Source: Pycnococcus provasolii
Lineage: Eukaryota; Chlorophyta; Pseudoscourfieldiophyceae; Pseudoscourfieldiales; Pycnococcaceae
Length of the DNA: 64,000 bases
Assembly: GCA_938743325.2 (NCBI GenBank)
Contig: OW568901.1
Coordinates: 62,001 to 126,000, forward strand
Direction of reading: 5' to 3'
Notes under the pieces: generated by a model
Told to the model about the DNA's origin: nothing
The model's input: the letters and a program-made list of their open reading frames with translations, nothing else
Database searches by the model: none
Shown here: in pieces, positions 49,840 to 61,118 of the stretch
How positions within the stretch are numbered: position 1 is the first letter of the stretch
Layout: every line of letters starts with the position of its first letter
Position numbers and translations under genes: made by a program

Positions 49840-50804
49840 ATGGGCAACTCTTCCAGTAAGTTCCCGATGTCCACCGTCGGCAAGGCTCCCGCTGTCTCCG
49901 TCGGCGATACGCTCCCCTCATCCTGCGCTTTGGACGACTCCTTCAAGGGCCTCAACGCCGATGCTACGAAAAACGTGCTTGAATATGTTAAGGTAACGTG
50001 GTTTGTCATTTTTTGTTTTTGTGCTTTTGTTTGGTGGTGATGTGAACCCTGTTGGTGGTTTTGGTGGTTCTGGTGGTTCTGGTGATGGTGGTTGTGTTTT
50101 GTCGTTGTGGCTTTTGTGTGCGTTGTGGTGCAGTTTTGTTGTGTGTTTTGTGCTGCTTGTCTCATCTCACGGAGATATTATCTTCAACAGAAGCACGTAC
50201 TGACGTGACCACATGTGTCCCACGCATCACAAAACAAAAACAAAATCCAAAACAACAAACACAAACATCCTTTCACAACAGGGACGCAAGGTGATCCTCG
50301 TTGGTCTTCCCGGCGCCTTCACGCCAACCTGATCGTACGTCACCTTTCTCATCTGTCCTCAGTCTTCGTGAAAACCAAAATAGAACACTCACATGACTGA
50401 ATCACAACCACCTACACTACACATGCAGCACGTGCCAGGTCCCAGGCTATGTCAAGGGAGAGCAGAAGCTTGACAAGGCTGGGATCGACGAGGTGCTCGT
50501 CTTCTGCGTGAACGACGGCGCCGTCATGACCGCGTGGGGAAAGGAGATGATGATTGAGGACACCAAAGTGACGTTCATGGCGGACACGCGCATGGAAACC
50601 ACCAAGGCGCTCGGACTCGAGCTCGCTCACCCAGGACCCATGGGATTGCTCGGAAACACGCGGTGCAAGCGCTTCGCCATGTACCTCGACGACGGCGTCA
50701 TCAAGGTGATCAACGTCAGTGAGGCGGAGGATGACCCGGCGGGCGACGACAAGCCTGAGACGAGCTGCATCGAAAACATGCTCAAGGAGATTGCCGCGCT
50801 CTAA
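49840..50804 (+). CDS. Peroxiredoxin (PRX5/type II) with in-frame TGA at the peroxidatic position, probable selenoprotein
   Basis: Three exons join cleanly: 49840-49992, 50282-50334 and 50429-50804, with GT-AG introns of 289 and 94 bp. The product is 193 residues if TGA 50330-50332 is read through. Exon 2 gives GRKVILVGLPGAFTPT, then TGA; exon 3 continues STCQVPGYVKGEQKL, then VLVFCVNDGAVMTAWGKEM, LGNTRCKRFAMYLDDGVIK and ETSCIENMLKEI. In type II peroxiredoxins the residue after FTPT is the cysteine that attacks hydroperoxides, so the TGA replaces exactly that codon. Frame is kept on both sides, and TGA is a normal stop in neighbouring genes, so selenocysteine is the best reading. The late TSC matches the resolving cysteine. 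The N-terminus MGNSSSKF could be myristoylated. A SECIS element was not found with confidence. Confidence 0.82.
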
Positions 50805-51314
50805 ACGAGTGCACAGGCAGCGGTGAGATAAAGCAACGCGTGGCAGAGCAAGCCCTTCTTCTGAAACACGGCGAACATGACGCCCGCCGGTGAGAAAGTT
50901 CCTTCTACGGATTTCCGCGCGACTCGAGAGTTGCGTGGACTCATCGCGATTCGTGGCTGACGACACGGAGCACACAATTCTGCAGTGTTCAAGCTACCGT
51001 GGCCGTGACAAAAATAAGAACGTGCGTGTAACAAATGCCGCATTTCTTTGCGTTGCTTTTTATAAAAACAACTGCTGCACTTACTTCTCGTGAGCCTCTT
51101 TCTATCATATCCTAAGCGTGCTTTGCGTGCTGCTTTGCTTGTGCTAGTGCCACTCGTAGTGTGCTGCCGACTTGCCCAGTGCGTGCTCACATACATATAC
51201 ATGGAGCGGGAGGGACCACCGGTAAAAACACCCCCCCTCTGAGATCCAAAACATTTTTTTTCCTATTCACATTTTTTATTTTTGCTTGTGAGCTCGCCTG
51301 CATGCGTGCGTGAG
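50805..51314 (+). other. Peroxiredoxin 3' region, searched for SECIS
   Basis: The 3' flank should hold a SECIS hairpin if the peroxiredoxin is a selenoprotein. A weak candidate is 50951-51012: TGAC at 50958-50961, a stem CACGGAGC/GCTACCGTG with one bulge, an upper ACAC/GTGT stem, a terminal loop beginning AA (50976-50977) and GTGAC at 51005-51009. The lower helix is poor, so I do not call it. No other gene is seen in this stretch. Confidence 0.4.
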
Positions 51315-60110: not shown

Positions 60111-61118
60111 TCACTGCGTTCTCAGCGCTAGGCTTAGCGCGCCGTGAAGGCCGGCGTCGTCGCCCTGCTCAGATGCGACGATGTAAGTGTCCAACTTCGC
60201 GCGATCCGACAACGGGTACACGTACCCGTCCAGCATCGCGTGAACCTTGTCGCGAATCATAACGTACAAACACCGACGACGCAGTATGCCGCCACCGATC
60301 ACGATGCGCTCGGGAGAAACCATGAGCGTGAGCGTGGCGCAGCAGCTCGCGAGCGCGTGCGCGGCGCACTCCCACACGGGGTGGCTGTCGTCCAAGGTGG
60401 GCAAATCGCTCGGCTTCACGTTCGCCAACTCGGCAAGCGCGTGCGAACCAGCGACGCCTTCAATGCTCATGCCGTGCTTCTCGTCAACACCCGTGAAATT
60501 CCTGTCTTGCATGGCTTCCACAAGCAGAGGTGGCGTGGGAACGTTCTTGAAGGCGCCAGCGAGCGCGCACGGAATCTTGCCGCCTTCCGGGTGCATGAGT
60601 CCACGCACAGCTTGCCCGTTGACGACAAGTCCGACACCCACACCGGTGCCACACGTGATGTACGCGCACGATGAAGCTTGCGCGTTCGTCCGTTTGAGAA
60701 TCTCGTACTCCGCGACAGCTGGCGCGTTCACGTCGGTATCAATGACGACGTCGTAAGTGTGTCCTGCAATCCCCGAGAGCGCCTCTAGAACGTTGACTGA
60801 TCTCCACGCAGGTTTCGGCGAAGACTCGTGTATGCAGTTTCGTGTGAAGTCGTACGGTCCAAACGTCGCAATGCCAAGCGCTGTGAGCGTCTTGGAGGCG
60901 GCGAACGGCTCGAGGAATGCCACGACGGACGCCAGCGCATCGGCGGGGGAAGACGACGGGACGGAGTGGCGCGCCACTGAGGATGACAGGGAGGGGCGGG
61001 CAGAGGGTACGACAATACACTCGATCGACGTACCTCCAAGCTCCACCGCCGCGACAACACCTTCCAGGCCACCGACGGCGCTGCCACTGCCGAGAGCACT
61101 GGACGGCTGCTGCGCCAT
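60111..61118 (-). CDS. ROK-family sugar kinase (fructokinase-like)
   Basis: The 335-residue protein starts at ATG 61118 (MAQQPSSALG). The phosphate-binding start is VVAAVELGGTSIECIVV (residues about 21-37). GIATFGPYD, VIDTDVNAPAVAEYE with the catalytic-type aspartate region, CGTGVGVGLVVNGQAVRGLM and a HPEGGKIP segment follow. VSPERIVIGGGILRR then closes the ASKHA ATPase fold. It most resembles bacterial-type ROK fructokinases, which phosphorylate fructose at C6. The usual zinc site (G-H ... C-P-x-H ... C) is degenerate: GGKIP replaces G-H-I and the later stretch reads DEKHGMSIEG with both cysteines lost. Activity on fructose is plausible, but metal dependence should differ. Confidence 0.82.
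   Translation of the reverse strand: MAQQPSSALGSGSAVGGLEGVVAAVELGGTSIECIVVPSARPSLSSSVARHSVPSSSPADALASVVAFLEPFAASKTLTALGIATFGPYDFTRNCIHESSPKPAWRSVNVLEALSGIAGHTYDVVIDTDVNAPAVAEYEILKRTNAQASSCAYITCGTGVGVGLVVNGQAVRGLMHPEGGKIPCALAGAFKNVPTPPLLVEAMQDRNFTGVDEKHGMSIEGVAGSHALAELANVKPSDLPTLDDSHPVWECAAHALASCCATLTLMVSPERIVIGGGILRRRCLYVMIRDKVHAMLDGYVYPLSDRAKLDTYIVASEQGDDAGLHGALSLALRTQ

Follow-up and report, generated by a model that had tools for sequence, protein, structure and literature searches.

The stretch of Pycnococcus provasolii DNA analysed here, a window of 64,000 nucleotides (nt) from contig OW568901.1, holds on its forward strand a peroxiredoxin (Prx) gene in three exons, whose reading frame contains a TGA at the position of the peroxidatic cysteine. 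The first exon (49840-49992) starts with ATG and comprises codons 1-51, with a GT donor at 49993; the second (50282-50334), preceded by AG, encodes GRKVILVGLPGAFTPT followed by the TGA and the first two bases of the next codon, with a GTACGT donor at 50335; and the third (50429-50804) supplies the remaining thioredoxin-fold domain and a TAA stop codon (50802-50804). The splice sites read AAG/GTAACG and CAG/GGA for intron 1, and ATC/GTACGT and GCAG/CAC for intron 2, both introns being of the GT...AG type. Joined as a first-pass annotation of this DNA had proposed, the exons give 582 nt in frame (193 codons and TAA), which make up a complete Prx5/type II peroxiredoxin, and the TGA at 50330-50332 (codon 68), in the context FTPT-TGA-STCQVPGY, is indeed its sole internal stop. 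The same annotation had the TGA directly adjoining a GT-AG intron; the intron is of that type, but the bases TC (50333-50334) stand between it and the TGA.

The Pfam Redoxin domain (PF08534) matches on exon 3, at C41:112424-112729 of the assembly (window positions 50424-50729), and the spliced product has both this domain and the T-x-x-C(U) loop of Prx5/type II peroxiredoxins. Among 1954 candidates, 1875 were homologous to it at E <= 0.001 (best 8e-67), and 27 distinct PDB sequences were matched, most of them named peroxiredoxins, including poplar 1tp9 and human PRDX5 (1oc3). Because of these homologue and PDB matches, the family match is not a matter of chance. The two structures share with the window protein a common family and the PGAFTPT-C/U-S loop, but have the peroxidatic Cys where the window protein would have selenocysteine (Sec). 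Intron 1 (49993-50281) is GT-rich and then AC-rich, could fold on itself, and gives a weak match to MIR2630 (22.5 bits, for a gathering score of 144).

We consider it very probable, on sequence evidence, that this gene makes a peroxiredoxin of the Prx5/type II (PrxII) kind and that selenocysteine is inserted at its UGA codon 68. The annotation had called the gene a probable selenoprotein, a view now supported by the Sec machinery of the genome, its sister selenoprotein genes, the relatives of the gene and a hairpin resembling a selenocysteine insertion sequence (SECIS); our confidence comes from the first three of these more than from the SECIS candidate.

Residues at the site were counted among the 120 matches listed of the 1875 homologues, the sample behind all the homologue counts given here. 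At codon 68, W is found in 52, C in 33, R in 3 and D in 2, and no residue is present in 30, of which 27 begin past the site, one (P0009) has 12 unrelated residues leading up to it and two (P0005 and P0070) skip it. The 33 cysteines bear out the earlier assignment of the TGA to the catalytic (peroxidatic) cysteine position, and its flanks are as conserved as had been claimed, with F64, T65, P66 and P74 present in 85/85 rows that show W or C there. The rows with W, 52 in all, derive solely from jgi, lgn or ena sources; among the 12 rows with a eukprot, mmetsp or ncbi source there is no W, seven having C, four being broken at the site and one beginning past it. We infer that W at this site represents TGA translated with code 4. 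The catalytic loop is skipped in the gene models of P0005 (tag PRCOL, taken here as Prasinoderma coloniale) and P0070 (Pavlovales sp. CCMP2436), and in P0036 (Eucampia) and P0083 ('Coret...') the residues are altered across it, which we read as frame shifts. The best match, P0001, with 89% identity over 63% of the query, begins just past the Sec site. Compared by eye, P0001 has one difference to the window protein from FCVNDG onward, the preceding ~23 residues being clearly different, a pattern like that of a mosaic or a conversion tract.

The genome, searched as 46 assembled contigs totalling 32.3 Mb, contains a tRNA-Sec with anticodon TCA (69.5 bits), SepSecS (445.6 bits against a cut-off of 224.85), selenophosphate synthetase (SelD, 265.2 bits), EFSec domain III (119.7 bits) and an SBP2-like protein that matches PDB 7zjw (E 7e-20), together with a weak PSTK candidate (42.4 bits against a cut-off of 382.35). 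The absence of such machinery had been named beforehand as an objection to the selenoprotein; tRNA-Sec, EFSec and the SBP2-like protein are all there. The selenophosphate synthetase (L014, 1372-3663) has an N-terminal pyridine-nucleotide oxidoreductase fusion, and its motif CGGCGAK has Cys rather than Sec, at a position where Sec can occur; a 100% identical protein is present in an ENA contig. In the PRCOL genome, P0005 and a selenophosphate synthetase (P0124) carry consecutive model numbers (00002341 and 00002340), and their genes may be neighbours. The PSTK candidate, on contig C23, is adjoined by a gene for a PsaL that is extended at length on its N-terminal side; a PsaL encoded in the nucleus is a mark of the green lineage.

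In addition, the genome search identified other genes with an internal TGA, in 4/5 GPx matches, 2/3 Rdx matches (which, by their motifs, we take to be a SelW and a SelT), 2/2 Sep15/SelM matches, one of them under Pfam's cut-off, and 2/6 MsrA matches, one of which also holds two TAA. When the TGA was placed by eye, using motifs that we assume to mark the Sec site in each of these four Pfam families, it fell at the expected position in all ten TGA-bearing matches. In one of them, the GPx match L021, TGA occupies the Sec site in frame and also serves as terminal stop. The 3' flanks of L021 (1972-2371, C26) and of the MsrA match L039 (1927-2326, C3) hold near-identical SECIS regions (54/61 nt, E 1e-18), a likeness that suggests the copying of a single element from one selenoprotein gene to another, unrelated one. 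Telomere-like CCCTAA/TTAGGG repeats lie less than 1 kb behind the GPx matches L018 and L021, in both cases inside the contig.

In the assumed 3' untranslated region of the Prx gene, a candidate SECIS was found at 50877-50961 on the forward strand, its core lying 73 nt past the stop codon. It has a 5' core ATGAC and a 3' core TGAC, a helix of 13 pairs that is bulged on its 3' strand, an energy of -30.5 kcal/mol, AAA placed 13 nt past the quartet, and a long mini-stem. The descriptor used requires TGA...GA cores that close a helix with 7 or more pairs, and an unpaired AA 8-16 nt past the quartet. It also finds an element behind 8/10 of the other selenoprotein matches, where the core stands 44-101 nt past the stop, a range that takes in the 73 nt of the Prx candidate; each stop is the first in-frame one past the match, so that introns may mislead either way. 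The distances are 71 (L018), 101 (L020), 80 (L021), 54 (L022), 70 (L023) and 83 nt (L024) in the six flanks that shaped the descriptor, and 58 (L036) and 44 nt (L039) in flanks outside that set; the thresholds of -15 kcal/mol and 10 pairs are attained by seven of the ten, L036 having 9 pairs. At these thresholds, a scan of both strands of the window gave 14 places, the Prx one included, which by hand calculation puts the chance expectation for a 58-nt zone at about 0.006. When the 509-nt flank was dinucleotide-shuffled 1000 times, 296 shuffles contained any match, 54 reached -15 kcal/mol with 10 pairs, 7 reached -20 kcal/mol with 12 pairs, and none equalled the real candidate, while among nine flanks taken from genes that lack an in-frame TGA four had a match, none having both -15 kcal/mol and 10 pairs. 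A hairpin starting near 50958 was dropped as the Prx SECIS, its AA falling by eye inside the mini-loop. The SECIS elements of this genome looked too varied to align.

Several points weigh against decoding as selenocysteine, and most concern this element. The descriptor was home-made and was widened after inspecting six selenoprotein flanks of the same genome; a narrower first scan had missed 50877-50961, giving only a poor match at 50862; and the flanks outside the shaping set have a match in 2/4 cases, L037 and L041 having none. A site from the minus-strand scan (60116-60213) equals the candidate in energy and pairs, free folding of 50870-50968 (z -2.24, with 6/200 shuffles as good) prefers another base for the stem and puts the 5' core in a small separate hairpin, and the candidate alone is only 1.3 standard deviations better than base shuffles (-32.3 against -27.9, standard deviation 3.3). 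The first-pass annotation had proposed a covariance-model search of the 3' flank, and the Rfam SECIS models gave no match there or in the window. As to the relatives, it is possible that their W is encoded by TGG, and no DNA of W-type relatives was found in viral and genome contig collections. The Rfam result says little, since SECIS_1 (RF00031), applied to the whole genome at E <= 10, listed only two sites, none of them at Prx, and one (C3:589446-589507) overlaps the descriptor match behind the Sep15/SelM match L036. Selenoproteins lacking a predicted SECIS are also reported in a study of Archaeplastida, above all from Mamiellophyceae (PMC6627142).

Three other explanations of the TGA were weighed. 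The one that survives best, though we regard it as very unlikely, is that sequencing misread a codon that is really TGC or TGT, or that a recent nonsense mutation has made the gene a dying pseudogene. One base change turns a Cys codon into TGA, and Cys is the residue at the site in 33 of the listed homologues; however, the remaining Prx frame is intact and its introns are clean, relatives are broken at the same codon, with P0001 (89% identical past the site) beginning just after it, ten other matches in four Pfam families have TGA at the Sec site, and a SECIS-like element lies behind the gene. That splicing removes the TGA and produces a non-Sec protein, which the annotation had also raised against its own proposal, seems to us less likely still. 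On paper there are 80 in-frame GT-AG alternatives (51 donors in 49860-50330, 12 acceptors in 50332-50519, introns of at least 40 nt), and skips of this kind occur in the models P0005 and P0070, but in this on-paper enumeration 80/80 lose the LPGAFTPT of the catalytic loop, and the skips in the two models look artefactual. Worked out by hand, a GC donor at 50323 joined to the acceptor at 50428 is in frame as well and would delete four residues including that of the TGA, but GCCAAC is a poor donor located 12 bases upstream of the good GTACGT, and PT-U-S would be lost. The least likely explanation, that the nuclear code here assigns UGA to an ordinary amino acid (Trp or Cys), could account for the 52 homologues with W, but it is opposed by the GPx gene L021, which ends in TGA with a SECIS-like element behind that stop, by the single in-frame TGAs of the searched families, which fall at Sec sites, by the Sec machinery of the genome, and by the probable inactivity of a Trp at the peroxidatic position. 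TGA also serves as an ordinary stop in the window, as had been reported: TGA closes three, and TAA the other three, of six checked open reading frames with a Pfam match, ends that may differ from the true stops in a spliced genome.

Plant PrxII and human PRDX5 each have a resolving Cys. Among the cysteines of the window protein are Cys95, Cys148 and Cys182. The second Cys of 1tp9 (LCISVND) corresponds to query position 93, which is V in the window protein, whereas Cys95 sits two residues past it, in the same stretch. When the listed homologues were counted together with the window protein (W taken as Sec) and the genome's own Cys-peroxiredoxin L001 (among the Cys-type), Cys95 was found in 52/53 rows of Sec-type, in 9/34 of Cys-type and in 35/35 with neither W nor C at the site; L001 itself carries Cys93 and Ser95. 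The 87 rows having W or C at codon 68 were placed on a quick tree, from which columns 68 and 95 were left out; it requires 10 or more changes of the Sec label, and over six independent pairs (starred branches) Cys95 and Sec agree 2.9 times on average and never conflict. This independent-pair test is not significant, and the link between Sec and Cys95 is for that reason suggestive only. Cys182, present in 34/120 listed homologues and aligned by eye with what we take to be the resolving Cys of human PRDX5, is a second candidate for this role. A UxxC redox pair of Sec68 and Cys71 was set aside, with C71 present in just 4/120.

The mechanism that we propose is that SBP2 would bind the candidate SECIS hairpin in the Prx mRNA and recruit EFSec with Sec-tRNA, whereby UGA codon 68 would be translated as Sec. 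The selenolate at this position would attack H2O2 or alkyl peroxides and be oxidised to selenenic acid, which a thiol would then resolve; the likeliest protein partner for the Sec68 selenenic acid would be Cys95, which is nearly always present with a Sec-type site, and thioredoxin, glutaredoxin or glutathione would subsequently reduce the enzyme. The link between Sec and Cys95 was not found in the parts of the literature searched, including PMC7539508, PMC2375036, PMC6627142, PMC3095285 and PMC3838956, a scope that leaves out most subscription journals.

Sec-peroxiredoxins are not new to algae. A PRX selenoprotein family, with Cys forms too, appears in the 2020 study The algal selenoproteomes (PMC7539508), and a study from 2007 reports one Sec-peroxiredoxin in Ostreococcus tauri, three in O. 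lucimarinus and two in Thalassiosira pseudonana (PMC2375036). By description, the window gene resembles this PRX family, which may belong to the same Prx5/type II subfamily, and likewise the Sec-peroxiredoxins of Ostreococcus, a green alga, and Thalassiosira, a diatom. In the 2007 study (PMC2375036), nearly all Ostreococcus SECIS elements have a G before the core, and a long mini-stem is described. G precedes the core in 7/8 other elements of this genome as well, and the long mini-stem is likewise seen in the Prx candidate, but the latter has an A before the core (ATGA type), as does one GPx element here. In the literature retrieved for selenocysteine, type II peroxiredoxin and alga, the selenocysteine passages found concern GPx.

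Reading the raw sequence recovers a selenoprotein gene that annotation breaks, and such breakage recurs among the listed homologues, in which the codon is skipped or frame-shifted by four models of named origin and many environmental entries have W or begin past the site. More tentatively, the algal Sec-type PrxII might form a mechanistically distinct subfamily, in which Sec is paired with a resolving Cys shifted by two residues on the same strand (95 instead of the plant-type 93) and Sec and Cys95 are gained and lost together; we think this possible but rather doubtful, and the suggested link makes a clear enzymological test possible. The apparently stop-broken gene most likely makes a working peroxide-destroying enzyme with selenium at its active site, and is in all likelihood a well-supported addition to the already known Sec-peroxiredoxins of algae.
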